A stretch of DNA of 64,000 bases from Anaerolineae bacterium (GTDB taxonomy: Bacteria > Chloroflexota > Anaerolineae > Promineifilales > Promineifilaceae). This document shows, piece after piece, positions 12,326 to 59,774 of the stretch. The translations under genes were made by a program, and so were the position numbers. The stretch covers positions 248,001 through 312,000 of the forward strand of contig JAMLHW010000003.1 of the NCBI GenBank assembly GCA_023954475.1, written 5' to 3'. Position 1 is the stretch's first letter. Each line of letters begins with the position of its first letter. The notes under the pieces were generated by a model. That model was not told where the DNA came from, ran no database searches, and saw only the letters and a program-made list of their open reading frames with translations.

Positions 12326-15300
12326 ATGATGCAATTTATTAAGCGGCACAAATGGCGCATTCATTGGGCGCTGTATTTATCATTATTGTTAATCCCCGTT
12401 GTGGTTGGTTTGAGTGTTGTCGTCCAGGCATCTGATTTCAGCTCAGATGAAACAGGCGTACAATCAGTTCGCGCCGATGATAGTGGTGTGCAGTTCACCT
12501 TTCAGACAAGCGAGCCGGTCATCGATACGGACGGCATCGTCACCGTCGCCGGTCTGGAAGAACGCCTCAATCTGCCCGGCGCACCGGCACTGCCCATCTA
12601 CAGCACCCTCATCGCTCTGCCGCCGGAAGCGACCGCCGCCATCACCGTCACAGCCGGTGACCGCGTCGCACAAGCCGTCACACGCCTGCAACCCGTGCCC
12701 ACCGTCGCCGACAGCGACAGCCTGCAAACTGCTCTGGTTGAGGGCAGCGCGCTCTCGCTGGAAGCATTTGGCCTGGCCTACGACGAAGACCCGGCCATTT
12801 ACGCTGGTGATACTGCCTATCCCGCGGCACTGTACACGCTGTCAGACCCCCAGTACATCCGCGACCTGCGCGTCGTGCAACTGACACTCTATCCGGTGCA
12901 GTACAATCCCGTTGCCGGAACCCTGCACCACGCCACCGAGCTGCACGTCGCGGTGCGCTTTGAGGGCGGCGACCTGACAAACCGCCAACCGGCCCCCAGC
13001 CGCGACACCGCCTACACGACCGGGCTGCGCGACCTGGTGCTCAACTATGCCCAGGCAGAAGCAGGCGATTGGCGCAGTCTGCCGCGAGCGACACAAAATG
13101 CGGCGGCGACAGCCCTGCCGGTTGGTCAGACGGCGTACAAGATCTCTGTCACCGAAGACGGCATCTACGAGTTGAGCTATGCCGATCTGGCGGCCGCCGG
13201 GATGCCGGTGAGTACGGTCGATCCCAACACGTTTGAGATGTTGTACCGTGGCGAACCGGTGGCGTATGAGTTCATCGGCGACGGCGACAGCCAGTTTGAG
13301 AGTGGCGAGGCGGTGCGGTTCTACGGCTGGCAGTATGAGGTCGATTACACAGACCCGCTGTACAACACCGGTGTCGAGCAGTATCCGAACCGGATTGAGC
13401 GGCAGCATGTCAAGGATCAGACGAATGTGTTTTGGCTGTGGGCAGGGGGGACGCCGACGCTGGTGACGAATCGGCCGAATGAGGTCGGCAATCCGGCGGT
13501 GAGCACGTTGCGGGTCACACAGACAACCGAAGTCGATGTCGGTGGTCATCCGACGTTCACCAATCAGTGGCACACGTTTGACAATGAGCCAGACGGTTAT
13601 TACTGGTTCACATTGAGTGGCGGGGCAGCACGAACGGCCGATGCTATCGTGGCCCATCCAGATCCGGCTGGAGCCGACGCCGAAATCCTGGCTGAAATCA
13701 ATAGTGTCAATACGGGCACCCATACCGTTTCAGTGCAGTTGGGTACTCACCCGGCGTTCAGCCGCACATGGACCGGTTACAATGACGTAAACATTGCAGG
13801 CACAGTGCCGGCAAGCGCACTTGTTGACGGTGGGAATCCGGTTACGTTGGATGCTGTCACAACGCTGGAAGTGAAAGCCCAGCGTTTGGATGTCACATAT
13901 GATCGGCTGCTAATAGCTGACGATAATCAACTGGTATTCAAGGATGCTGCCGGCGGCGCACGCCAATTTGACATCAGCGGCTATACCGTCGGCGACGCAG
14001 CCCAGGTGATTGCCTGGGATGTAACCAATCTGAACCAGCCAGAGCGCATCGACGTATTGGCCGGCGCGATCAGTGGTAGCAACCCATACATTTATCAGGT
14101 TGGTAGTACTCATACGGCAGAGTCCCGCTTTATCATCGCCAATGAGTCGGGCGTAAAACAGCCACAGATCGAGTCGTATTTTGTGAAAAATATTGATCCG
14201 GTTGGAGGCGCGGACTGGTTGGCCATTGCCCATGCCGACTTTACTGCTGCGACACAAGATCTGGCAAACTACCGTGAAAGTGCCCTGGGTGGCAACTATG
14301 ACGCGTTTGTTGCTGATGTGGCTGATGTCATTAACCAGTATGGTTATGGTTTACCAGTGCCAAAAGGAATTCGGGATTATGTGCATCACGCCTTGAGCTG
14401 GCCCACTGCACCGAGCTATGTCGTATTGGTTGGCGACGCAACGGCTAATCCGCGCCAGACCCTGGTTTGTGCAGAATGTATAGATTTCGTACCGACAAAC
14501 CTGTTGTTCATCGACCGGTTTCAAGGACAAGTTCCCAGTGATCATCCGTACGCCACCCCGGACGGACTCGATGACTTTCCCGATCTGGCTGTGGGGCGTA
14601 TGACTGTGAAGAGTGTGGCCGAGTTGCAAAACTTGATCAGCAAGACGATTCGGTACGAGGCCGCCCAGGCGGATCCGGACAATTACGAAAGCTGGATGTA
14701 TGATATTCTGTTCACTTCCGATTATACGAAGGTGGGAGCGGAGAATTTCTGCCTGGATAACCAGAATTTGGCAGCCGATAATATTCCAGGCAGTTACAGT
14801 GCCAAACACCTTTGTCTGGATGACTATATGGCTGGGACGACTCCGACTCAGGATGAATCACATGCCATGTTCCTGGACATCCAAAGTGAGTTGGATGGTC
14901 CGCCACTGGGTAACAAAGGTAAGAGTATTGTCAATTACCGGGGTCATGGCGGCATTCAGACGTGGGGTGATCATTTGGTCGACATTGGCATCAATACGCC
15001 ACCCTATTTCTGGTATAACTTCACACGCCCGTCTGTTGCCATTAGCGCAGATTGTCTGGATGGTAACTTTTCGTTTTTCAGATATGATGCTGCAACTGCC
15101 GAGTATTATGACTGGCCGGCACTGAGCGAAGCGTTTTTGGATGTGAATGGACAGGGAACGGTCGCACATTGGTCATCGAGTGGATTGGGATACAATGGCG
15201 AACATACAATTCTGCATGAAGGGTTTTACAAAGGTATGTTTGAACAACATCTTCGGCCGATTGGTGACATCGTTAACTATTCCAAGGTCCGCTATCTGAG

Positions 15301-15541
15301 CACGAGTGGCGGGCACGTATCCGAGGTATATGCGTTTATTTTGCAGGGTGATCCCGCGCTGAAAATGCCGTCAACGCCTGAGCCACCGATGCCCCCTACG
15401 CCGACGCCAACAGCGACACCGTCTCCGACGATGACACCGGAGTTTACGCCGACACCGGGCCCGTCGCCGACACCAACGTTTACGCCGACACCAAGCCCGA
15501 CGCCGGTGGATGTAAAATATATCCCTGTAGTTAAAGGGTAA
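12326..15541 (+). CDS. Secreted C25 (gingipain-like) cysteine peptidase
   Basis: A 1071-residue exported protein. The N-terminus has a basic region and a long hydrophobic segment (residues ~14-36). The middle carries beta-rich domains. The catalytic C25 domain covers roughly residues 600-1020, with the expected His in NYRGHGG (His874) and Cys in SADCLDGNF (Cys910). The tail (~1025-1063) is Thr-Pro repeats and ends with a short hydrophobic KYIPVV, a tail style common in secreted Chloroflexota proteins. GAGGAG precedes the start; ATG at 12329 has better spacing and is also possible. Two genes on, a second C25 peptidase is encoded in the same direction. Confidence 0.85.
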   Translation: MMQFIKRHKWRIHWALYLSLLLIPVVVGLSVVVQASDFSSDETGVQSVRADDSGVQFTFQTSEPVIDTDGIVTVAGLEERLNLPGAPALPIYSTLIALPPEATAAITVTAGDRVAQAVTRLQPVPTVADSDSLQTALVEGSALSLEAFGLAYDEDPAIYAGDTAYPAALYTLSDPQYIRDLRVVQLTLYPVQYNPVAGTLHHATELHVAVRFEGGDLTNRQPAPSRDTAYTTGLRDLVLNYAQAEAGDWRSLPRATQNAAATALPVGQTAYKISVTEDGIYELSYADLAAAGMPVSTVDPNTFEMLYRGEPVAYEFIGDGDSQFESGEAVRFYGWQYEVDYTDPLYNTGVEQYPNRIERQHVKDQTNVFWLWAGGTPTLVTNRPNEVGNPAVSTLRVTQTTEVDVGGHPTFTNQWHTFDNEPDGYYWFTLSGGAARTADAIVAHPDPAGADAEILAEINSVNTGTHTVSVQLGTHPAFSRTWTGYNDVNIAGTVPASALVDGGNPVTLDAVTTLEVKAQRLDVTYDRLLIADDNQLVFKDAAGGARQFDISGYTVGDAAQVIAWDVTNLNQPERIDVLAGAISGSNPYIYQVGSTHTAESRFIIANESGVKQPQIESYFVKNIDPVGGADWLAIAHADFTAATQDLANYRESALGGNYDAFVADVADVINQYGYGLPVPKGIRDYVHHALSWPTAPSYVVLVGDATANPRQTLVCAECIDFVPTNLLFIDRFQGQVPSDHPYATPDGLDDFPDLAVGRMTVKSVAELQNLISKTIRYEAAQADPDNYESWMYDILFTSDYTKVGAENFCLDNQNLAADNIPGSYSAKHLCLDDYMAGTTPTQDESHAMFLDIQSELDGPPLGNKGKSIVNYRGHGGIQTWGDHLVDIGINTPPYFWYNFTRPSVAISADCLDGNFSFFRYDAATAEYYDWPALSEAFLDVNGQGTVAHWSSSGLGYNGEHTILHEGFYKGMFEQHLRPIGDIVNYSKVRYLSTSGGHVSEVYAFILQGDPALKMPSTPEPPMPPTPTPTATPSPTMTPEFTPTPGPSPTPTFTPTPSPTPVDVKYIPVVKG

Positions 15542-15548
15542 GATAATT

Positions 15549-16688
15549 ATGAGCCAACCATCGAGACGTTTTACTGGATTCAGGCTGTTGGAACAGCATG
15601 TGAAAAGCCATATCGGCCGAATTATTGTCGCAATTATCCTGCTCACATCAATCTTGAGTGGCATGCTGTTGGCATCGCGATCGGCCGATGCCAATGTCAC
15701 CCTGCAATATTTTGAAGCGGAAGCCGTTGCAGGCGGCATTGCATTAGAGTGGAAAACGGCAACTGAGTTTAGTTCATCAGCTTTCTACGTGAAACGCGCT
15801 TTGAATCGCTCCGATTTTCTGCCGGTCGATAACTCCGTATTGCTTGAAGCAGATGCGATTGAGTTGCTGGACAGTCAAGGAAACACGGTCATGACCATCG
15901 ACGCACAGGGTTCCGGTGGTAGTGGTGCAACATATAACGTACTCGATACAGGTGATGATCTGACTGACGGCCAAACCTATTGGTACCGGTTGGTAGAGAT
16001 CGAACAGGGCGGTAACAAAATTGCCCAGATTGATGATGATACGTTTGCGACGCAAGGTGAAATCGGGACGCCGACACCGGGCGTCACAGAGGTTGGCCTC
16101 CCCACGGCGACATCGGCTCCAACGAATACACCGACCACAGCTAATACGGTGACACCGACACCGGCGGCGACAGCGACATCCGGGGCGACAGCCACATCAG
16201 TCGCAACGTCGACATCTACAGCTGCGGCTACAACGGCATCATCTGCAGCAGGAACTGCGACCAGTACGCCCGTCCCACCGGCTACGCCAACGCTGATTCC
16301 AGTCGCGACTGCGAATGATGCTACAGATGATCCGGGTGAAATTGGAGCGGTTCCCGTTGCAGAGGCAGCCGGACAAACTAGTTATCCCGGTGAGGTTACA
16401 CCGACGCCGGTGACGCCGGAAGCGTATCTGGGTGATCAGATACCAGGATCGATCGATAATAATTCGGCCGATAGTGACAGTACCGACCCGACCGCGCCAG
16501 CGATTATTGGCGAAAGCGAGACGGCCAGTGCCCAGTTGCCGCCGCCCAGCAACAGCGTGAGCAACGAAACGACGTCAACCAATCGAGCCATTCTATGGAT
16601 CGGTTTCGTCGCAGCCTTACTCATTTTTGCAGCCGGCGCCTTTGGTTCGATCATCATCTTTACTCGCAGGCGTACCGATGAAAGTTAG
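15549..16688 (+). CDS. Cell-surface protein with beta domain, Thr-Pro linker and C-terminal membrane anchor
   Basis: A 379-residue protein with an N-terminal hydrophobic signal/anchor (~25-43). A fibronectin-III-like beta region (~50-165) has the EWKTATEFSSSAFYVKR and YWYRLVEIE strands often seen next to secreted adhesins and peptidases. A long Thr/Ala/Pro linker (~175-330) and a C-terminal membrane helix followed by RRR (~348-375) complete it. It follows the first C25 peptidase by 7 bp and overlaps the second by 11 bp, so the three form one operon. It could be a peptidase substrate or a display scaffold. Confidence 0.7.
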   Translation: MSQPSRRFTGFRLLEQHVKSHIGRIIVAIILLTSILSGMLLASRSADANVTLQYFEAEAVAGGIALEWKTATEFSSSAFYVKRALNRSDFLPVDNSVLLEADAIELLDSQGNTVMTIDAQGSGGSGATYNVLDTGDDLTDGQTYWYRLVEIEQGGNKIAQIDDDTFATQGEIGTPTPGVTEVGLPTATSAPTNTPTTANTVTPTPAATATSGATATSVATSTSTAAATTASSAAGTATSTPVPPATPTLIPVATANDATDDPGEIGAVPVAEAAGQTSYPGEVTPTPVTPEAYLGDQIPGSIDNNSADSDSTDPTAPAIIGESETASAQLPPPSNSVSNETTSTNRAILWIGFVAALLIFAAGAFGSIIIFTRRRTDES

Positions 16689-18840
16689 TCAAAAGCCGTG
16701 GTTTCATCGACTTGGGCTTTTGGTGCTATTATTCGTTGTGGGCAGCGTTTCAGGTGCTGCTTGTGGACGAGATAAAAAACAGACAGCGGAACAAGTCGAT
16801 CGCGTCAAACTGGCGATAGCCGATCCGGGTATTTATCGGGTGACAGTGGATGAATTGCGCGATGCGGGCCTGGATCTGACCGATCTCGAAGCGCAACGCC
16901 CCGCACTAACAACCGGCGGACAGTCGATCCCCTATCTTATCGATTCAGACGCGATCATTTTTTATGGTGCTGCTGCTGACAGTCGCTTTGCCAATGTGAA
17001 GAGTTACATCGTTGCAACGGACGCGGAAGGTGTCCTGATGCGCCAGGCAAATGCTGTCTCGTCGGATGGCCCAGAAGTGAAGGCGGTGCACCAAACAATA
17101 CATCTGGAAGAAAATCGATTCTACGATCCGCGCGCCATCCAGCCGGGAGTCGAAGAGGTCTGGTTTTGGGAGACAATTCGCAATTTAGGCGCAAGTAACC
17201 AATTTGAGTTGACGGTGATGGTACCCGATGTTGTTGAAAATGCTGCCGCTGATCTGCGCGTCAATCTGTATGGAGCGACTTATGATAATGGTGTGGACGG
17301 CGATCACACCTTTGACCTTATCGTCAATGGACAGAAAGTGGAGACGGTGCAGTGGGATGGGCAGACGCACTTCACTGCCGACGTCGTGATCCCATCCGGC
17401 GTGCTCAGGGCCGGCGACAATACGATTGTTATTGACAATTCGGCCGAAGGTGCGACATTGCTCGACATCATGTTGCTTAACTGGCTCGAACTGACATATG
17501 AAATGCCCACAGCGGCTTTTGCTGATGCGATTGAATTTACCGACGTATCGGGTGTTGTGACACTAGAAGCAAATGATTTGGTGGTGCTAGACATTGCTGA
17601 TCCAAACGCGCCTGTGCGCATTAGCAGTAGTGTTATCGGTGATACGGATACCTTCGCTGTAACCGATGTGATGCGCATCACAGCGGCCGATTCCCGCGCA
17701 CTGAAACAACCTGCTGCAATGGAACCCCTATTGCCGACGACATGGCGAGAAGCTGCCAATCAGGCAGACTTGCTGATTGTGACGACGGCGGCATTGGCTC
17801 CGGAGTTGGAACCACTGGTAGCAGCACGCGAAGCTGAAGGTATTACCACATCTGTTGTGCCGGTTGAAGAAATTTACGACGCGTTTGGCTATGGTGATCC
17901 GTCGCCGGACGCTATCAACGCGTTTGTCACCTATGCTGTGGCGCAGTGGGAATCGCCGGCACCTGCCTACTTGCTGTTGGTTGGCGACGCGACGACAGAC
18001 ACGCGTGGTTACCTGGCGCAGCGTCCAGATAATCCCATTGAACCACCGGCAAATATCGTACCTTCCCCGCTTATTGCGGTCAGCCACAGTGGTGAAACGG
18101 TATCCGATGCGCGTTTGGCTGATGTGGATGGCGATCTCATGCCGGATTTGGCGGTCGGCCGCTGGCCGGTCGCTGATGCCAACGAGGTGCGCGACCTCGT
18201 TAGCCGAACGTTGGCATATGAAAATGGGGTTTCGGCCGATACTGCTTTGTTTACAATGGACGGCACCAGCAGCGAATTTTCCAGTTTCACATCCCGCCTG
18301 CTGGAAGAAGCAACATTTTCGGCCGGCGGCGCGACGCTGCTCGATGGTCCCACCGCTCAAACAGTTGCTGATAACTGGAATGACGGTGCGTGGCTGATTA
18401 GCTATGTCGGTCACGGCAGTCTCGATCTGTGGGGCAAAGATGAAGTGTTTTCGGCCGAACAGGTCAGCGCTATTGCCGATGATGCCGTTGCGCCTATCGT
18501 GCTGCAATTTACCTGTCTCTCCGGACAATTCGCCCATCCCGAAACAGAATCTCTGTCTGAGGCATTGATCAAACACGAGTCCGGCCCGGTCTTGCTTGTC
18601 GCTGCCACCAGCCTGACGCTTTCTTCGCACCAGGAACCATTTGCCGTCGCATTACTCCAGGCATTGCAAGACCCGTCTGTCGAGCGCATCGGCGACGCAT
18701 TACAACGTGCCAAAGCCAGCTTGAACCCGGCTGACAATCCGGGATTGCAAGAGATCAGCGATACGTTTGGTTTGTTGGGTGACCCGTCAGCTAAAATTGT
18801 GCGCCCAGGATCGTCGCAGAGCGCCGCCGTCGGCAACTAG
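16678..18840 (+). CDS. C25-family cysteine peptidase, predicted lipoprotein
   Basis: A 720-residue protein. The start at 16678 overlaps the previous gene and gives a signal peptide ending in the lipobox-like SGAAC, so it is probably lipid-anchored outside the membrane. The C-terminal half is a C25 peptidase domain with catalytic His in SYVGHGS (His579) and Cys in QFTCLSGQF (Cys613), and the alpha/beta segments YLLLVGDATTD and DLAVGRWPV. It lacks the Thr-Pro tail of the first peptidase. Two different C25 enzymes around one Thr-Pro-rich anchored protein suggest a dedicated surface-processing operon. Confidence 0.85.
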   Translation: MKVSQKPWFHRLGLLVLLFVVGSVSGAACGRDKKQTAEQVDRVKLAIADPGIYRVTVDELRDAGLDLTDLEAQRPALTTGGQSIPYLIDSDAIIFYGAAADSRFANVKSYIVATDAEGVLMRQANAVSSDGPEVKAVHQTIHLEENRFYDPRAIQPGVEEVWFWETIRNLGASNQFELTVMVPDVVENAAADLRVNLYGATYDNGVDGDHTFDLIVNGQKVETVQWDGQTHFTADVVIPSGVLRAGDNTIVIDNSAEGATLLDIMLLNWLELTYEMPTAAFADAIEFTDVSGVVTLEANDLVVLDIADPNAPVRISSSVIGDTDTFAVTDVMRITAADSRALKQPAAMEPLLPTTWREAANQADLLIVTTAALAPELEPLVAAREAEGITTSVVPVEEIYDAFGYGDPSPDAINAFVTYAVAQWESPAPAYLLLVGDATTDTRGYLAQRPDNPIEPPANIVPSPLIAVSHSGETVSDARLADVDGDLMPDLAVGRWPVADANEVRDLVSRTLAYENGVSADTALFTMDGTSSEFSSFTSRLLEEATFSAGGATLLDGPTAQTVADNWNDGAWLISYVGHGSLDLWGKDEVFSAEQVSAIADDAVAPIVLQFTCLSGQFAHPETESLSEALIKHESGPVLLVAATSLTLSSHQEPFAVALLQALQDPSVERIGDALQRAKASLNPADNPGLQEISDTFGLLGDPSAKIVRPGSSQSAAVGN

Positions 18841-19988: not shown

Positions 19989-21425
19989 ATGCGACCTGAA
20001 ACAGCACCAGTTGCGATGAGAGTTGTTGACGACCCCGATCAAACCCGGCGTTCCGTGCTGTGGTGTGTGTGGGCACCGGTTTTGACCGGTACGATTGCGC
20101 TGTGCGTCTACAGTTTGACGGTCGCAGGCGATTTGTCGTGGGCTCATTTCAGCAGTGATGGTGGGGAGTTGATCACCGCTGCGGTAACGCTTGGCGTGCC
20201 GCATCCGCCCGGCTATCCGACCTATATTTTGCTCGGCAAAGTAATGTCGTACCTGCCGTTGGGCAATGTGGCATTGCGTTTCAATGTGCTTTCGGCACTG
20301 TGTACGGCTGTGGCGGCTGCTTTTGTCAGCGCAACGGCGTTACATTACCCGCGTCGTGACGATTTGCCGTTGTCACCAATCGTTGCCATGTCGGTTGGGT
20401 TGACCTTCGCCTTTGCGCCGCTGGTGTGGGGTCAGGCGCTGATTACCGAAGTGTACACGCTCAATCTGGCCGTGTTAGCCGCGTTGCTGTGGGCTTTGCT
20501 GGCGCAGCGTTCGCCGTGGTTGGTCGGTTTGCTCTGGGGGTTGAGTCTGACCACGCATTTGACGAGTGCGCTGATGCTGCCGCTGCTGCTATTGGTTCGG
20601 CCGATTAAAGAATGGGCGGCGTTGTTAGGTGGGGCGTGTATCGGTGTGCTGCCGTTTTTGCTGCTGCCGTTTCTGGCGCTGGGCGATAGTCCGGTGATTT
20701 GGGGTGACCCGACGACATTATCCGGTTGGTGGTGGTTGATTAGTGGTGCGTTATATCGGCCGAATCTCATCTCCCTGCCCATTGACGCACTCAGCAGCCG
20801 CTTGCCGCTCGCCATGGTCGGCCTGCTGCGTCAATTCGCATTCGTGGGCTGGTTGCTGCTGCCAATCGCCTTTACCCGGCGCAACCGCACACCTGTAGCC
20901 TGGCTTTTGCTGGGAACCGGTGCACTCTACGCCGTTTATACAATCATTTACAACAGTATTGACTACGTGCTGTTTTTTCTGCCGGGCATGCTGATTGCCG
21001 CGATTTTACTTACGCCAGGTATGCGCAAGCTAACCGTATGGTCATTGCTCTTGCCACTCTTGCTGCTTGCGCTACACTTTGGTTCGTTTAGCGAACGAAC
21101 CGACGACGTGCGCGGCGCGGTGCAGACCTTCATGGATTCAGCACCTCAGGACGCGTTGCTAGTGACAACCGGGGACGAAAACATCTTTTCACTCTGGTAT
21201 TTCCAGCATGTGGAAGGATGGCGACCCGATCTTGTCGTCGTCGATGCCAATTTGCTCGGTTTTGATTGGTATCGAAATCGTTTGGCAAAGCAATACCCGA
21301 CCGTGGTTGGACTGGAGCGCTATGACGTGGCCGCTTTTCAGGCAGCAAATGCCGAACGGCGTGTTGTTTGTCGCGGTAGCCTACACGCTGTCGGACAGAT
21401 GGATTGTAGTGAGGTTGCACGTTGA
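19989..21425 (+). CDS. DUF2723 membrane protein (protein O-mannosyltransferase-like)
   Basis: A 478-residue polytopic membrane protein. The first loop reads SSDGGELITAAVTLGVPHPPGYP, the hallmark of the DUF2723/TMEM260 family (GT-C fold); TMEM260 is known to O-mannosylate extracytoplasmic protein domains. A GTG at 19986 directly precedes the ATG and is an alternative start. The stop overlaps the TTG start of the DUF4012 gene by 4 bp, so the two are coupled. With Thr/Ser-rich secreted proteins on both sides, surface-protein O-glycosylation is a reasonable inference. Confidence 0.8.
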   Translation: MRPETAPVAMRVVDDPDQTRRSVLWCVWAPVLTGTIALCVYSLTVAGDLSWAHFSSDGGELITAAVTLGVPHPPGYPTYILLGKVMSYLPLGNVALRFNVLSALCTAVAAAFVSATALHYPRRDDLPLSPIVAMSVGLTFAFAPLVWGQALITEVYTLNLAVLAALLWALLAQRSPWLVGLLWGLSLTTHLTSALMLPLLLLVRPIKEWAALLGGACIGVLPFLLLPFLALGDSPVIWGDPTTLSGWWWLISGALYRPNLISLPIDALSSRLPLAMVGLLRQFAFVGWLLLPIAFTRRNRTPVAWLLLGTGALYAVYTIIYNSIDYVLFFLPGMLIAAILLTPGMRKLTVWSLLLPLLLLALHFGSFSERTDDVRGAVQTFMDSAPQDALLVTTGDENIFSLWYFQHVEGWRPDLVVVDANLLGFDWYRNRLAKQYPTVVGLERYDVAAFQAANAERRVVCRGSLHAVGQMDCSEVAR

Positions 21426-23407
21426 GTCAGAACGCGACTAAAAGTAATCGAACCGGTTGTTGGATTGGCCTGATTCTGCTGGCAGGATTTTTGCTGATTA
21501 TGGGCTGGCTGGGCTGGAAAGGATGGCGCACGTATACAGCGGTGCGCTCCTTGCAGGCGCGGCAAGCTCAAGTCGAAGAGCTGGCATCTGCCGGTTTGGA
21601 AGGCGTTGATTTGCAGGCGCTTGACGAGTTGGTGACGGGTTTGCGGCGCGATGTGGCAATTATCAAAGCAGAAACGGCGTTGTTTATGCCGTTGACGGCT
21701 TATCTGGGCTGGGTTCCCCAATATGGTCCGCTGCTGGTCGATGCGCCTCAGTGGCTGGAAATGGCGGATGCCGGTACGCTGGCGTTGGTTGATCTGTTTG
21801 CAGCGAGCCGACCGGTTATCGAACAGATGCAATCGGCCGAAAACAGAGACTTGCGCCAACTGATCGCCGCTTTGGATACCGTACAACCCGCGCTCGAACA
21901 GAGCAAACCGTACATAGAACGCATTGAGACCGCATACCGCGATATCGACAGTTGGCAGACACTGCCTGCCGGTCTGGATGCATTACAGGAACCGATCGAC
22001 ACCTTGCTCCCATTAGCGCCGGATGCGGTTGATCTGTTGGGTATTGTGCCGGAGCTGATGGGAATGGATGGTCCGCGCACGTATTTGCTGTTGGCGCAGA
22101 ATGAAGACGAACTGCGGGCGACCGGTGGCTTGATCAGCGGTATCGGTTTGCTGCGTGTTGAGGACGGCGCGATTCAGTCGCTGGAATTCATCGATTCTTA
22201 CGATGTGGATGATTTGCGCAACAAGCCGTACGATGCGCCGCCGCAGCCTTACGAGCAGTTTATGGGTATTCGCTTGCTCTTGATGCGCGACGCTAATTTC
22301 TGGCCGGATTTTCCCTATTCGGCCGAAAAAGCCGCTAACCTGTTTCGGTATGGGCAGGACGGAACATCGCCCATTGACGGCGTCATTGCGATAGACCAGG
22401 AATTCTTACGTGTTTTACTCGGTGTGACCGGCCCTGTTGCCGTTGCAGAACTCGACATGACCGTTGACGCGAACAACATCGTTGAGCAATTGCGTGCTGC
22501 TTACAATACAGATGGCGATGAAGAAGTCAGCGGTGAATGGTGGCAGCAGCGCAAATCATTTATGGCACCGGTAGCGACAGCCATTCAGGACAAAATATTC
22601 GACGATCCCGGTGCACTGAACATGCGCCAGTTACTTTTCGATGTGTTCGATTCGGGTAGAGGTAAGCATCTGCAACTGTACCTCACCGATCCCCAGGCTG
22701 CCGCAGTCGTAGCACGCATGGGCCTTGATGGGAGCTTGCCTGATCCAGATGGCGGTGACATCGTGCTGGTGCAGGATATGAATATGGGTTACAACAAGGT
22801 CAACGCCATTGTCGACCGACGCCTGCATTACGCGGTTGACCTCACGACTGACGTTCCCACTGCACAGATCGACGCAACTTATATGCATAATGGAACTGGT
22901 AACCGTGCTGATTGTGAACATTTCACGGCCTATGATACTGATAATCAGTATCAGGGCTTTTTTGATAATTGTTACTGGAATTATGTCCGTGTCTATGCGC
23001 CGACCGGATCGCAGTTACTAGAAGCGTCGTCTTATCCGGCACCGGCCGATTGGTTTGTTACCGGAGAAGCGTGGGACGGAGTCGCGGGTACGATTGAGGA
23101 TCCGTCGGGCTTGACAGTGTTCGACAATTTCCTGGTAGTGGAGCAGCAGCAATCGGCCGATACCTTTTTCCGCTATCAACTACCTGCGTCTGTGGTGCAG
23201 ACGCTGCCCGATGGGAGTAAACAATACCGGTTAATCGTCGTCAAACCTGCTGGTACGCGAGTAGAACCTGTTCAAGTACAGATCGCATTGCCGCAAGGGG
23301 CGACTGTTATTGACACCGATTCGGCCGATGCCACAATCGATGGCAATACGGTGGTGTTCGACTTTTTGCTGAGCAAAGATACGCCACTTTCCGTCCGGTA
23401 TCGGTAA
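21422..23407 (+). CDS. DUF4012 domain membrane-anchored protein
   Basis: A 661-residue protein with one N-terminal membrane helix (~13-33), a coiled-coil stretch (~40-210) and a large extracytoplasmic DUF4012 domain. Family signatures are YLLLAQNEDELRATGG and DANFWPDFPYSAEKAANLF, followed by PIDGVIAID. It starts with TTG inside the stop region of the DUF2723 gene (TTGA overlap), so translation is coupled. DUF4012 proteins are often found in exopolysaccharide or surface-glycan clusters; their activity is not established. Confidence 0.85.
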   Translation: MSQNATKSNRTGCWIGLILLAGFLLIMGWLGWKGWRTYTAVRSLQARQAQVEELASAGLEGVDLQALDELVTGLRRDVAIIKAETALFMPLTAYLGWVPQYGPLLVDAPQWLEMADAGTLALVDLFAASRPVIEQMQSAENRDLRQLIAALDTVQPALEQSKPYIERIETAYRDIDSWQTLPAGLDALQEPIDTLLPLAPDAVDLLGIVPELMGMDGPRTYLLLAQNEDELRATGGLISGIGLLRVEDGAIQSLEFIDSYDVDDLRNKPYDAPPQPYEQFMGIRLLLMRDANFWPDFPYSAEKAANLFRYGQDGTSPIDGVIAIDQEFLRVLLGVTGPVAVAELDMTVDANNIVEQLRAAYNTDGDEEVSGEWWQQRKSFMAPVATAIQDKIFDDPGALNMRQLLFDVFDSGRGKHLQLYLTDPQAAAVVARMGLDGSLPDPDGGDIVLVQDMNMGYNKVNAIVDRRLHYAVDLTTDVPTAQIDATYMHNGTGNRADCEHFTAYDTDNQYQGFFDNCYWNYVRVYAPTGSQLLEASSYPAPADWFVTGEAWDGVAGTIEDPSGLTVFDNFLVVEQQQSADTFFRYQLPASVVQTLPDGSKQYRLIVVKPAGTRVEPVQVQIALPQGATVIDTDSADATIDGNTVVFDFLLSKDTPLSVRYR

Positions 23408-23531: not shown

Positions 23532-24530
23532 ATGGTTAAACGATTGAGCTTTTTCACCATGTTAGCCGTGCTGTTAGCCGTATTGGCTTTGAGCAACCAG
23601 CCGTTGGCGGGACAAACAGTGCCTGAACCGACAGATACGCCAGTGCCTCCGGCAGCGACGAATACACCGCCACCAACCAACACGCCACTCCCGGCAGCAA
23701 CTAACACACCTCCGGCAGCTACAGCTACCCCGGTTCCGGGTGCAACAGCAACGCCGACGTCTGTACCAGCCGCATCAGCCACGGCAACACCGACTGCGGC
23801 GGCGACCGGGACACCGGTAGAGGAACCGGTTCTTACACCGAGTGTCGATGCAGCGCTGCCGGCCGATGCGTGTGCCGATGCCCCTGTCTTTGTTGTTGAG
23901 CAAGACGTTGCCGCCGTCAAGGCCGGTCCCAGTACATTGTACGCCACGACGACAACGTTGGATGAAGGTGCCGTGCGCACCATTGTTGGCCGCTATGCGT
24001 TCGGTGCATGGTGGCTGATCCGCCTCAATGCGACGACAACCGGCTGGATTGCTGATACCGATGGTATCGTCGTTGGGCGTACGGTCACCGTGCCGCTAGT
24101 CGCAGCACCTGCACGCAATGGCGCGACACCGACACCGGCAACGTCCTGGAATCCGACACCGAATCCGGATTGCATCGGTGTGCCGACGTCTACGCCTACC
24201 GCTACCCCAACCCCGACACCTGCGCCATCGGCTGCGGCGTCGGACAATACGCGTGGTGGTCAAGAAGATGAGATTGTCGTTGTGAGTGGTTCTGAACCGG
24301 AAGAGGATGCCCCAACTGCAACTGTGGTATCGACTCAGGCAATCTCGGATGTAACTGAGGAGTCGCCCACTGTAATCGAAAGCGATACCGCATCGCAAAA
24401 TACGCCTGTGCCACCTGCATCTGATGTCATAGCTGAAACGACGCCGATTTGGCCGTTGTTGATTGGCATCGGTTTGGTCGGTGCGGCTGTCGTCACGTTT
24501 ATTGTGGTACGGGCACGGGGCAGCGCATAA
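23532..24530 (+). CDS. Secreted Thr-Pro-rich protein with SH3-like domain and C-terminal membrane anchor
   Basis: A 332-residue protein: signal peptide (1-27), Thr-Pro-Ala repeats (~30-105), an SH3-like beta domain (~115-200) with AVKAGPSTLYATTTTL, WWLIRLNATTTGWI and a conserved Cys pair, a second Thr-Pro stretch, and a C-terminal membrane helix (~304-325) followed by RARGSA. It would display a small ligand- or glycan-binding domain at the cell surface. It follows the DUF4012 gene by 124 bp and is followed by a strong terminator, so it closes the surface region. Confidence 0.75.
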   Translation: MVKRLSFFTMLAVLLAVLALSNQPLAGQTVPEPTDTPVPPAATNTPPPTNTPLPAATNTPPAATATPVPGATATPTSVPAASATATPTAAATGTPVEEPVLTPSVDAALPADACADAPVFVVEQDVAAVKAGPSTLYATTTTLDEGAVRTIVGRYAFGAWWLIRLNATTTGWIADTDGIVVGRTVTVPLVAAPARNGATPTPATSWNPTPNPDCIGVPTSTPTATPTPTPAPSAAASDNTRGGQEDEIVVVSGSEPEEDAPTATVVSTQAISDVTEESPTVIESDTASQNTPVPPASDVIAETTPIWPLLIGIGLVGAAVVTFIVVRARGSA

Positions 24531-56136: not shown

Positions 56137-56400
56137 CACGAAACAGTCGCAAGCGTATCCTTTGTGAGTTGGTTTTGGGTGATTTGGGATGGATTATCCG
56201 TAATTGTTTCTCGATGAACCCTCGATTGCATTGATAAGTGGAGATTAATTCGGCTTATTACACCAATAGAACTGTTTATACAGGTGGATATTCGGACTAT
56301 ACCGATAATTAAGTGGTGATGCCGAACATCATTCGGCATAATAATTGTTAGCGTGCCATAGCAAGCACATAATCAAATAAAGTTGAAATCAAAAAATAAA
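56137..56400. other. AT-rich intergenic region at the left edge of the foreign island
   Basis: No gene is seen. Base composition becomes AT-rich from about 56150. TGCCGAA (about 56319) and TTCGGCA (about 56331) form a small hairpin. GTTAGCG (56347-56353) is complementary over six bases to GCTAAC at 59789-59794, which suggests the left boundary of a cassette-like insertion. Confidence 0.45.
56347..56353 (+). other. Possible left boundary (GTTAGCG) of a cassette-like insertion
   Basis: GTTAGC here matches the reverse complement of GCTAAC at the outer end of the attC-like site at 59789-59893. In integron cassettes the cassette's own first bases complement its R'' box in exactly this way. A six-base match is weak evidence on its own. 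Confidence 0.35.
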
Positions 56401-57250
56401 ATGACACATTTCAGTCAACTCGAAAATATTCCACAACTCGGCTATTTCCTTAGATATCGTTACTGGAAAAATGCGGTCAAACTGCTCCACTATCAGCTAG
56501 ACATTAAAAATAGAAACCGTCATTTTAATACTCTGAGTATGTTTTATTACGAGGAATTAGGAAAAAAGACAAAAAAACTAAAGAATAAAAAATATTTCAG
56601 GAAGAGAATAGCAAACAACCTATTCTATGGGCTAGAAGAAGAATTCGCTATATACCCATATCCAATACCTAAATCAAATCTTGGCTTGCGTAACTACAAA
56701 TTCCTCACTTATCCATTGAGACTAGTTTACTATTCGGTAGCGCTTTATATCTTGGATCTTTCACAAGAGGTAATCAGAGATTACTATTTAAAATATAAGC
56801 ACCTTCATGCTGACTATGGCGGCAAACTTTTTTTTGATGACGACAAAAGGAATCTAATTCTTAACTACGATAGCATTTGGTACAAACCTCATTACAAACG
56901 CTTTCGCGCAACTGTTCGAAGAGAAGTAAAGGACAACTTGGAAAATAAGATCGTTATTCATATCGACATCCAAAACTACTATGACGAAATTTCAATCCCA
57001 ATCCTTTTAAATTTTTTGAGCAACTATGTGAAGCCGAGTATCCAAAGAGAAATGCGGTTCGATGCAATTTCACAAGGGCAAATAACTGCGTTTTTTAAAT
57101 TTCTAGGAAATGGTAGCTTGGGTATTCCTCAAAGTGATAATGATATCACATCTAGCTATCTAGGATTTTTGTATCTTGCTTTCGGAGATTTACTTCTAGA
57201 CCAAGAAATCTCTAAGACTTACGAAATTGTCGAGAGCCATCGAATTATCA
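56401..57250 (+). pseudogene. Abi-type reverse transcriptase, N-terminal part, interrupted by an IS
   Basis: About 283 residues of a reverse transcriptase resembling AbiA/AbiK-type defence RTs. The N-terminus is Lys/Tyr-rich, then YPLRLVYYSVALYILDLSQ leads to RT motif A (VIHIDIQNYYDEIS, Asp195 counted from TTG 56383, 189 from this ATG) and motif B-like GNGSLGIPQSDNDITSSYLG. The frame enters the IS at 57251, just after ESHRII, where the YxDD motif is expected next, and stops inside the IS. The rest lies at 58739-59774. AT-rich codon use and the absence of TCGGCCGA mark it as foreign. ATG 56401 is chosen; TTG 56383 is also in frame. Confidence 0.7.
57245..57250. repeat. Target site duplication, left copy (TTATCA)
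   Basis: TTATCA directly precedes the IS left end and is repeated at 58739-58744 directly after its right end. Confidence 0.8.
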
Positions 57251-57405
57251 CCTTATTTTTGCGCAAAGAGAGCGCATTTCTACTATTTCATGCAAAGAGA
57301 GCAGGTTTCTACTCCGCAAATTGCAGCGTATTCCGTCAATTTCGAGCATTTCTGAGTCGAGCGGTCAAACTTCATTAGAATTAGGAACCTAATGGAGAGT
57401 GACCA

Positions 57406-57891
57406 ATGACGATCAAACTTGGACTGACAACAGAAAACATCAACACACAATACGCGCCGCTAGCGGCACTATTCGCACATTATCAACAGAATCAGGTCTT
57501 GAAACCGCTTGAACAGGTCATGATTCCCATGAAATCGGTCGAATTCAAGTCGATTGACAAGCTCGTGCAAGTATTTGTGAGCGTTTTAGCCGGTTGCCAG
57601 ACACTGTCACAAGTCAACCAAAGGCTCAAACCAGAACGACCGCTGGCACAAATCGGCGGCTGGCCACGCTTTGCTGACCAATCGGGGCTGTCAAGAACGC
57701 TGGATGCGCTAACGCTAACGAATATTGAGCAACTGCGTTCAACAACGCGTCAAATCGCGTGCCAATTCAGTCAAGCTCGCCAGCACGATTGGCGCGGCCA
57801 TCTGTGGCTGGACTTCGACTTGAGCGGTTTGCCATGTGGTCAACGGGCTGAAGCGAGCCAAAAAGGATACTTCAGCGGTAAAAAAACGTGA
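57406..57891 (+). CDS. IS transposase, upstream frame (DDE N-terminal part)
   Basis: A 161-codon frame containing the N-terminal part of an IS4-like DDE transposase: a helical DNA-binding region, then the first catalytic Asp area LWLDFDLSGLPCGQRAE. It ends in SGKKT at TGA 57889-57891. Seven A residues (57880-57886) lie directly before the stop. A -1 slip there enters the downstream frame, which overlaps by 4 bp and carries the remaining catalytic residues. Confidence 0.8.
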   Translation: MTIKLGLTTENINTQYAPLAALFAHYQQNQVLKPLEQVMIPMKSVEFKSIDKLVQVFVSVLAGCQTLSQVNQRLKPERPLAQIGGWPRFADQSGLSRTLDALTLTNIEQLRSTTRQIACQFSQARQHDWRGHLWLDFDLSGLPCGQRAEASQKGYFSGKKT

Positions 57892-58679
57892 CAGGACGGC
57901 AGTTGGCGCGTGTCAACACGGTCAAATACGGTGAAACGCTGTGGTCAGAGCTGTATCCGGGCAATCAGCATACGGTCAACTGTCTGCAACCTGCCGTGAC
58001 AGCGACCGAAAGTTCATTAGAGTTAGCCCAAGCTCAGCGTCAACGCACCGTATGGCGGTTTGACGGCGGGGCTGGCAGCGATGAACAGTTCCAATGGCTC
58101 TTCAACCGTGGGTATCACGTTGTTGGCAAAGGGCTATCCAACTTCCGCGCTTGTGCGCTTGCACAGCAAGTACGCCGTTGGGACAGCTACGCTGATTGTC
58201 AATTGGGCGAGGTGACGCCCCCCATTGATTACGGTCGCCCTGTGCGCGTTTTCGTCAAACGCCGACTCAAAAAGGACAAATGGCGGCACAGCTACTACGT
58301 TACTTCACTCCAATTTCCTTCCAAAGGGCTGTTCATGACGGCGTACAACCAGAGAGGTGGTGCCGAGGTTGAGCAATTTCGGCAAGACAAACAAGGCTTG
58401 GCTTTAGCTGCTCGGCGTAAGGCATCGTTGAATGGTCAGAAAGCGTGCGTCCTGTTGACCGACTTGGCTCACAATCTGCTGACTCACTTCAGCCGCCATG
58501 CTCTGGCCGAATCACGCTTCAGGGCTTTTGGTTTGAAGCGCATTGTCCGTGACCTGCTTCACATTCCAGGCGCACTCCATTTTGAGGGCGTAAGAGTGAA
58601 AAAGGTCGAGTTGCTAACTCTAAACCAAAATTCGCGAGACCTGATTATTTGCTTGGAAAAGTACATTTCTGGCGGGTAG
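57888..58679 (+). CDS. IS transposase, downstream frame (DDE C-terminal part)
   Basis: A 263-codon frame beginning GTG ACA at 57888. It continues the transposase core: TVKYGETLWSELYPGN, the second catalytic Asp in WRFDGGAGSDEQF and the Glu in YNQRGGAEVEQFRQDK, followed by helices. By itself it lacks the first Asp, so a functional protein requires fusion with the upstream frame by the -1 shift at A7. Confidence 0.8.
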   Translation: MTGRQLARVNTVKYGETLWSELYPGNQHTVNCLQPAVTATESSLELAQAQRQRTVWRFDGGAGSDEQFQWLFNRGYHVVGKGLSNFRACALAQQVRRWDSYADCQLGEVTPPIDYGRPVRVFVKRRLKKDKWRHSYYVTSLQFPSKGLFMTAYNQRGGAEVEQFRQDKQGLALAARRKASLNGQKACVLLTDLAHNLLTHFSRHALAESRFRAFGLKRIVRDLLHIPGALHFEGVRVKKVELLTLNQNSRDLIICLEKYISGG

Positions 58680-58738
58680 AAATCGCCGCTCTTTGCACGT
58701 AGGGGGTAGAAACCCGCTACTTTTGCACAAAATTAAGG

Positions 58739-58744
58739 TTATCA
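58739..58744. repeat. Target site duplication, right copy (TTATCA)
   Basis: Identical to 57245-57250, on the other side of the IS. Confidence 0.8.
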
Positions 58745-59774
58745 GATATGGACGATATATCGGTTACGATATGAAAGTCTCGGGCAGAGGAAGTGTTGGA
58801 TTCACTTTCTGCCAGATATGGTCGACATGAGAAGCGGGACTTAGCGGCACAAAACTGATTGTTTTGGCTCGATGACGACAAATCGGGTAAAGATTTTTCG
58901 CTGATTTGAAAGGTGCTCTCTGGCTGAAACCTGGATGGTGAAACAATATCATCAAGGAAAGTGTGACAGATATTGCCCAGCTGGAAGGCCAAAGCGCCCG
59001 CCGGATCGTCGCTGGATTTACATCAGGATCTTTGAATCAGAAATTCTAAAGGAAGTCTATACGCCAAGTGTAAGCCAGCTTTTGAAAAAGGCAGATAACA
59101 AGGCAAGGATCAAACACATATTCACAGATTTCAATTTTGATTTAATAATTGCTCAACCTAGGGAGATCCTGATAGTTTTACTGCATGACAGAGACGCTGA
59201 TAAAGCTTTTAGAAAATTCCTTATTTCTAAACGAAATCTAACTTCCCGCGAAGTTCATCTAATATTGACATATCTTTGCCAAACTGAGTTTAAATCCGGC
59301 AAATTGAAAAAGTCGCTTCGAAAAAGCCGACAATTAAAGAAAATTATGGAGATTTACAAATACGGGAAAATCCCCTCAAAATTACCAGGTTATTTTGGAT
59401 TGGATGCTAAACAAGTTATGAAACTCTCCAAGATGCACAATGTTATCGAGCAGGCGAGGTTACGGGTATTGTCGGAACGTCAAAATCAATATTCTGTTGC
59501 TCTTAATCACTTGCTCAATGAAATTCATGCAGTTTGCTTCAAACTTGATCCTCGGGAAATAAATGAAAAACAATATGATGCTTTAAAAGCTATTGAGTTC
59601 CTTATAACAGACTGTCAGGTTCCACACGAAACTTGCATGAAAATTCGCAATTTGTTTGATCGCCGTAACAAGAATCCTGTTTCTCATGCAGATCCAATAG
59701 CTTGGCCTGTAAGTAAAGAGGAATATTATGATTACCACAATCACGTTGGAAACTGCTTACGTCACATTCTTTGA
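58739..59774 (+). pseudogene. Reverse transcriptase C-terminal part with HEPN-like motif, decayed
   Basis: Right after the IS all three frames are broken for about 200 bp. In one frame the first codons read SDMDDISV, close to RT motif C (YxDD), just where it is expected, but shifted relative to the N-terminal part. From about 58935 a long frame runs to 59774 (up to 279 residues): helical, Lys-rich, with HIFTDFNFDLIIAQPREIL and, near the end, LFDRRNKNPVSHAD. The R-N-x5-H spacing fits the HEPN ribonuclease motif. RT plus C-terminal HEPN is the AbiA architecture of abortive-infection RTs. It is very unlikely to be expressed as a functional protein now. Confidence 0.6.

Follow-up and report, generated by a model that had tools for sequence, protein, structure and literature searches.

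We have analysed a stretch of 64,000 nucleotides from an Anaerolineae bacterium of the phylum Chloroflexota (contig JAMLHW010000003.1, positions 248,001 to 312,000; hereafter, the window), the forward strand of which carries a tightly packed operon of three genes encoding an exported C25 peptidase (C25-A), a Thr-Pro-rich stalk protein with a transmembrane (TM) anchor, and a second C25 peptidase (C25-B) that has a lipoprotein-type N terminus and resembles PorU. This three-gene set is a conserved module of the Chloroflexota, and we propose, with moderate confidence, that it is a conserved cell-surface maturation module, in which a membrane-tethered PorU-like protease and its stalk mature exported proteins, chiefly the partner C25-A. 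In Bacteroidota, C25 enzymes of the PorU type are part of the type IX system; if the proposed module is confirmed, PorU-type chemistry would exist outside that system.

Organization of the operon

C25-A (12326..15541, + strand) is an exported zymogen-type peptidase of 1071 aa, consisting of a signal peptide, a gingipain-type propeptide (PF08126, residues 80-215, E=2.6e-18) that matches the gingipain R2 pro-domain, and a PorU/gingipain-like catalytic domain (PF01364, residues 632-1014, E=2.4e-61), in which the catalytic pair H874/C910 is intact. A Thr-Pro-rich linker, starting from residue 1020 (15383..15511, +), leads to the C-terminal tail VKYIPVVKG (15512..15538, +), a degenerate form of the YLP-box type described below; the protein thus ends in VDVKYIPVVKG. 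Seven bp further downstream begins the stalk gene (15549..16688, +), which overlaps by 11 bp with the gene of C25-B (16678..18840, +). The stalk protein (379 aa) begins with a signal/TM segment, and both its sequence and a structure model indicate an N-terminal beta-sandwich domain followed by the Thr-Pro-rich stalk and a C-terminal TM anchor with the basic tail RRRTDES (16584..16685, +). The domain appears to be FN3/Ig-like (15675..16070, +), with invariant W, T, E, F, Y, D, Y and L residues across 14 homologues and a predicted local distance difference test (pLDDT) score of 74. Across the homologues the beta-sandwich domain is conserved, the Thr-Pro stalk is variable, and the TM segment has a basic end. 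C25-B, a protein of 720 aa from the ATG at 16678, also has an intact catalytic pair (H579/C613; PF01364, E=3.9e-64), and it lacks a C-terminal tail. Both peptidases belong to the C25 family, as they score 208.5 and 217.7 bits against the PF01364 cut-off of 23 and contain the GHG and (D/T)CLxGxF motifs.

The three-gene arrangement is not due to chance, because a second copy occurs in the same genome and the same set is found in dozens of other Chloroflexota. The genome itself, for which our statistics rest on 25 stretches totalling ~0.5 Mb and on whole-genome pattern searches, contains nine C25 matches, and the second set, located on another contig (C23), consists of a C25-A, an S26 peptidase, a stalk protein and a C25-B.

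Conservation of the module in Chloroflexota

C25 peptidases are encoded in 105 of the 150 genomes of the class, and many of them form a pair of a long and a short protein on one strand; most of the genomes compared are metagenome-assembled genomes (MAGs). In the loci of relatives, C25-A comes first and is often followed by an S26-type peptidase and sometimes by a PqqD protein; the stalk protein and C25-B come next, in this order. Genes were called simply as the longest open reading frames (ORFs), and some starts, lengths and regular expression-based labels (S26, PqqD, stalk) are approximate. A profile built from 16 B proteins cleanly separates the two kinds of peptidases in the fetched loci, giving ~700-1000 bits for B proteins versus 290-575 bits for A proteins, with somewhat lower scores (614-671 bits) for the closest orthologues of the window's C25-B. 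In 27 of ~31 loci the B gene is immediately preceded by the stalk gene, the two often overlapping by 4 bp, and in most loci the A gene lies just upstream; more than 30 additional loci, which come from other MAGs, show the stalk-B or A-stalk-B order as well.

In a tree of the catalytic domains, the Chloroflexota B proteins form one clade (42 rows; Shimodaira-Hasegawa-like approximate likelihood ratio test support of 99), apart from the A proteins, and the distances among A proteins and among B proteins from the same loci are correlated (r=0.845, 31 loci, 0 of 5000 permutations), which shows shared inheritance rather than direct contact. The C-terminal tail belongs to one partner only: a YLP-type tail ends 49 of 68 A proteins versus none of 62 B proteins. 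Among the six nearest orthologous loci, the A genes of five (L178, L179, L180, L182 and L183) have an equivalent tail, the terminal boxes being YLPVIVRP, FLPAIVSD, FLPAFRNAQ, YLPFVYKP and YLPLIEKP, and the box persists also in those that have lost the Thr-Pro linker.

C25-B is a predicted lipoprotein related to PorU

The predicted lipidated cysteine of C25-B (Cys29; 16762..16764, +) lies in the lipobox VSGAAC, which taken alone is atypical; however, a lipobox is present in each of the six closest orthologues and in 40 of the 62 B proteins versus only 2 of 58 A proteins, and most of the B proteins lacking it have an N-terminal hydrophobic segment. With its signal peptide and lipobox cysteine, C25-B has the attributes of a bacterial lipoprotein, and its lipidation is predicted.

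In a search with the B profile, PorU came first with 190.6 bits, versus 131.8 bits for the gingipains, and residues 41-719 of the profile were co-linear with residues 34-786 of PorU, which cover its N-terminal and catalytic parts. An AlphaFold model of C25-B (mean pLDDT of 80) gave the same ranking in a Foldseek search (4.4e-30 for PorU versus 5e-17 for gingipains). On the other hand, the NCBIfam PorU models (NF033707 / NF052324) gave 149-201 and 113-168 bits, well below their cut-offs of 420-450, and C25-B is therefore best described, from its sequence, as PorU-like and not as PorU. A search of eight genomes for SprA_N gave no match, and the control genomes gave no match either.

In these respects the original prediction, which had been made from the letters of the window, was largely right. 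It had placed two C25 peptidases around a Thr-Pro-rich anchored protein in a tightly packed operon, and all three genes have the architecture it gave them; it had called one of the peptidases a lipoprotein, which is borne out with the correction that the window's own lipobox is convincing only together with those of its relatives; and it had asked how this enzyme is placed relative to PorU, the answer being that C25-B goes with PorU and not with the degradative gingipains.

A proposed model of surface maturation

From the sequence features, anchors, linkage and co-inheritance described above, we infer a probable substrate, a type of reaction and a place for the tail. C25-B and the stalk protein would make up a unit located at the outer surface of the cytoplasmic membrane, with the stalk positioning either the enzyme or its substrate. 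C25-B would then cleave exported partners, first of all C25-A, at the propeptide or in the C-terminal region, and this cleavage would activate C25-A at the cell surface, set it free there or trim its tail region. The reaction may be simple hydrolysis or, as for PorU, transfer to an acceptor. A sortase-like activity of PorU has been reported for P. gingivalis (PMC4560394), and we extend it to C25-B by analogy, as a hypothesis.

Several observations weigh against this model. Three loci (L159, L161 and L163) have a stalk gene and a B gene with no adjacent A gene; some B proteins carry an N-terminal TM segment instead of a lipobox; fold searches with the stalk protein returned only a generic and weak Ig-like match; and the parallel divergence of A and B proteins would also follow from simple co-inheritance.

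The YLP-box tail family and its relationship to C25 peptidases

The tail of C25-A is one of many. We searched the 150 genomes of the class with a strict tail pattern at the DNA level (Y-h-P-h-h-x-[KR]-stop), using the reversed pattern as the control, and found 493 occurrences versus 148 for the control, with 61 versus 3 in a single genome; the matches inspected are the C-terminal ends of unrelated exported proteins. The tail is already in NCBIfam, where other tailed proteins match NF050076 / NF053834 ('YLP-box putative sorting motif'), and therefore the motif is not new. Our literature searches found no paper on the YLP-box, and nothing relevant on Chloroflexota C25/PorU sorting, on PqqD together with C25, or on SynChlorMet. 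For scans of six-frame translated DNA the NF053834 model is too short to be useful, as it also matches in 11 of 14 control genomes.

The genome-wide tail search suggested by the original prediction had a divided outcome: a family of tailed exported proteins is real in the phylum and co-occurs with C25 peptidases, but the window's own genome has almost no tails, no excess over the control and no tail family in the stretches and whole-genome pattern searches. Sister genomes with the same operon do have tail families (12 versus 2 for the control, and 11 versus 1). The Thr-Pro linker, which had been taken as part of the sorting signal, is rejected in that role, since it is absent from most tailed proteins, and in orthologues the terminal box is retained whether or not the linker is present.

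It is possible that the module has a role in sorting. One form of this idea, which we consider unlikely, widens the original one: a PorU-like C25 enzyme, more likely of the tailed A type than C25-B, would recognise and cleave the YLP-box and anchor the proteins bearing it, as PorU does with the C-terminal domains of type IX clients, removing these signals and attaching the proteins to a surface glycolipid. In the phylum sample, tail-rich genomes nearly always encode a C25: at least four strict tails occur in 18 of 24 genomes with C25 versus 1 of 127 without, and the same comparison at the family level gives 22 of 44 versus 2 of 53; in both tests phylogeny and secretome size, which may account for the correlation, are not fully corrected for, and C25-A itself adds tails. 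The number of net tails is highest in genomes with B, lower in those with A only and lowest in those with neither, and the idea is further favoured by the tail on A itself, by the PorU-like architecture and by the tail families of the sister genomes.

Against tail sorting by C25 enzymes stand, besides the window's own genome, a 99% complete genome (G148) with seven clear tails in which C25 is absent, three others (G136, G025 and G138) that have a few tails without C25, and the many C25 genomes that have no strict tails. A 'C25' match in G148 was found by inspection to be a CHAT-like protein. In tail-rich Chloroflexus/Herpetosiphon-like genomes (f59, f69), the loci examined contain tailed A-type C25 peptidases and no recognised B, while four genomes (G081, G124, G134 and G096) have both A and B and no net tails. 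We have therefore rejected the lipoprotein C25-B as a universal tail enzyme on its phyletic pattern, and the original proposal that the lipoprotein C25 might process or anchor the tailed proteins is not supported by these same genomes. The three-gene set tends to occur in genomes using this orphan C-terminal motif, although the tag is at most a candidate substrate of the set. In the most ambitious version, which we regard as doubtful, the orphan YLP-box (~10 residues, with no TM segment) would find its missing processing enzymes in PorU-like C25 peptidases acting at the Chloroflexota surface; this would be an analogue of type IX tail sorting in cells without such a system, and the B-stalk unit would be the form of it that is anchored in the membrane. 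The C25 module offers a concrete and testable candidate enzyme for this orphan motif, whose role in sorting NCBI lists only as 'putative'.

Other explanations

A nutritional role is another possibility that we hold to be rather unlikely. Here A and B would break down proteins of the environment close to the cell, where the stalk and the lipid anchor would merely retain them, as the resemblance of the C25-A zymogen propeptide to those of degradative gingipains and the several C25 paralogues per genome might suggest; however, B groups with PorU and not with gingipains, and the fixed stalk-B linkage and the parallel divergence suggest a dedicated partner.

A subclass of PF04203 sortases might instead act on the YLP-box, with C25-A as merely one client, but this is improbable. 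Classical sortase substrates have a TM segment, which the YLP tail lacks, and 4-5 sortases are encoded in tail-poor genomes such as G026, G058 and G103, even though the C25-poor tail genomes tested (G148, G136, G025, G138 and G280) all have 2-4 sortases and a sortase gene lies ~110 bp downstream of a tailed C25 gene in Herpetosiphon-like genomes. The window's own genome, in which no PF04203 sortase was found, has almost no tails, as this explanation would expect. The stalk protein, in spite of its TM segment and RRRTDES end, matched no NCBIfam or Pfam anchor model and does not qualify as an LPXTG-type sortase substrate.

Finally, a RiPP-like (ribosomally synthesized and post-translationally modified peptide) maturation cassette is very improbable, since the S26 peptidase found after A in many loci, the PqqD protein found in some and the radical SAM or HprK-like kinase genes found near others are all missing both from the operon in the window and from the six nearest orthologous loci, and no conserved precursor peptide was identified.

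Neighbouring genes and related loci

Two further genes follow C25-B on the + strand. The first encodes a flippase-like integral membrane protein (PF03706; 18918..19979), which is also the downstream neighbour in L179, with membrane proteins of similar size in L180 and L181; the second encodes a TMEM260-like protein O-mannosyltransferase (PF11028; 19986..21425), which directly follows C25-B in L178 and L182 (Pfam match) and in L183 (by sequence). In the operons of relatives, one or the other of these genes comes next downstream. Animal TMEM260 initiates the O-mannosylation of plexins and related receptors (PMC11292533), and therefore it is a reasonable guess, and not a result, that the TMEM260-like enzyme, whose gene lies just downstream, O-mannosylates the Thr-Pro part of the stalk. 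Beyond these genes the window encodes a DUF4012 protein (21422-23407), relatives of which occur near C25-B in L051 and L057, and, a few genes beyond C25-B, another protein that is rich in Thr-Pro and has a TM segment at its C terminus (23532-24530).

At several related loci other genes adjoin those of C25 peptidases. In Herpetosiphon-like genomes (L094, L116-L119 and L104), a YLP-tailed C25 gene is followed on its own strand, after ~110-160 bp, by a gene for a protein of 302-303 aa, the one tested being a PF04203 sortase. In L010 (13029-15630), L012 (4437-12039) and L049, genes for radical SAM/SPASM proteins, an HprK-related kinase, a nucleotidyltransferase (PF14907) and small FN3-like proteins lie beside C25 genes, and these cassettes are weakly similar to SynChlorMet cassette families. 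L011 (4213-18000) encodes a pair of C25 proteins that are very large and contain FN3-like segments; their neighbours are an asparagine-synthase-like protein and an ABC exporter permease-like gene. In Omnitrophota, KSB1 and another bacterium (L218, L230, L235 and L237) C25 genes adjoin, as judged from motifs, P-loop (HprK-like), radical-SAM-like and sometimes S26-like genes, so that C25 may be linked to peptide-modification cassettes outside Chloroflexota too. Elsewhere in the window (56383-59774), the N- and C-terminal parts of an AbiA-type reverse transcriptase, a DRT-like defence gene, flank two transposase-like ORFs, so that this gene appears to be interrupted by an insertion.

Comparison with known systems

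With the gingipains RgpB and Kgp the module shares the C25 catalytic domain and, on C25-A, the gingipain-type propeptide, whereas C25-B matches them more weakly and is paired with a TM stalk protein. The NCBIfam YLP-box (NF050076 / NF053834) corresponds to the tail of most C25-A relatives and to those of many exported Chloroflexota proteins, whereas the window's tail, YIPVVKG, is degenerate and is unscored by these models (no match up to E 0.1). The closest parallel is PorU, the C-terminal signal peptidase/sortase of the type IX secretion system in Porphyromonas gingivalis (PDB 6za2; PMC4560394). C25-B aligns with it over the N-terminal and catalytic regions with the His/Cys pair conserved, and, as in type IX systems, a C-terminal tag is borne by the partner C25-A; on the other hand, C25-B scores under the NCBIfam cut-offs, lacks the C-terminal domains of PorU and is of the lipoprotein type, and the client tail in Chloroflexota is shorter than 12 residues rather than a folded C-terminal domain.

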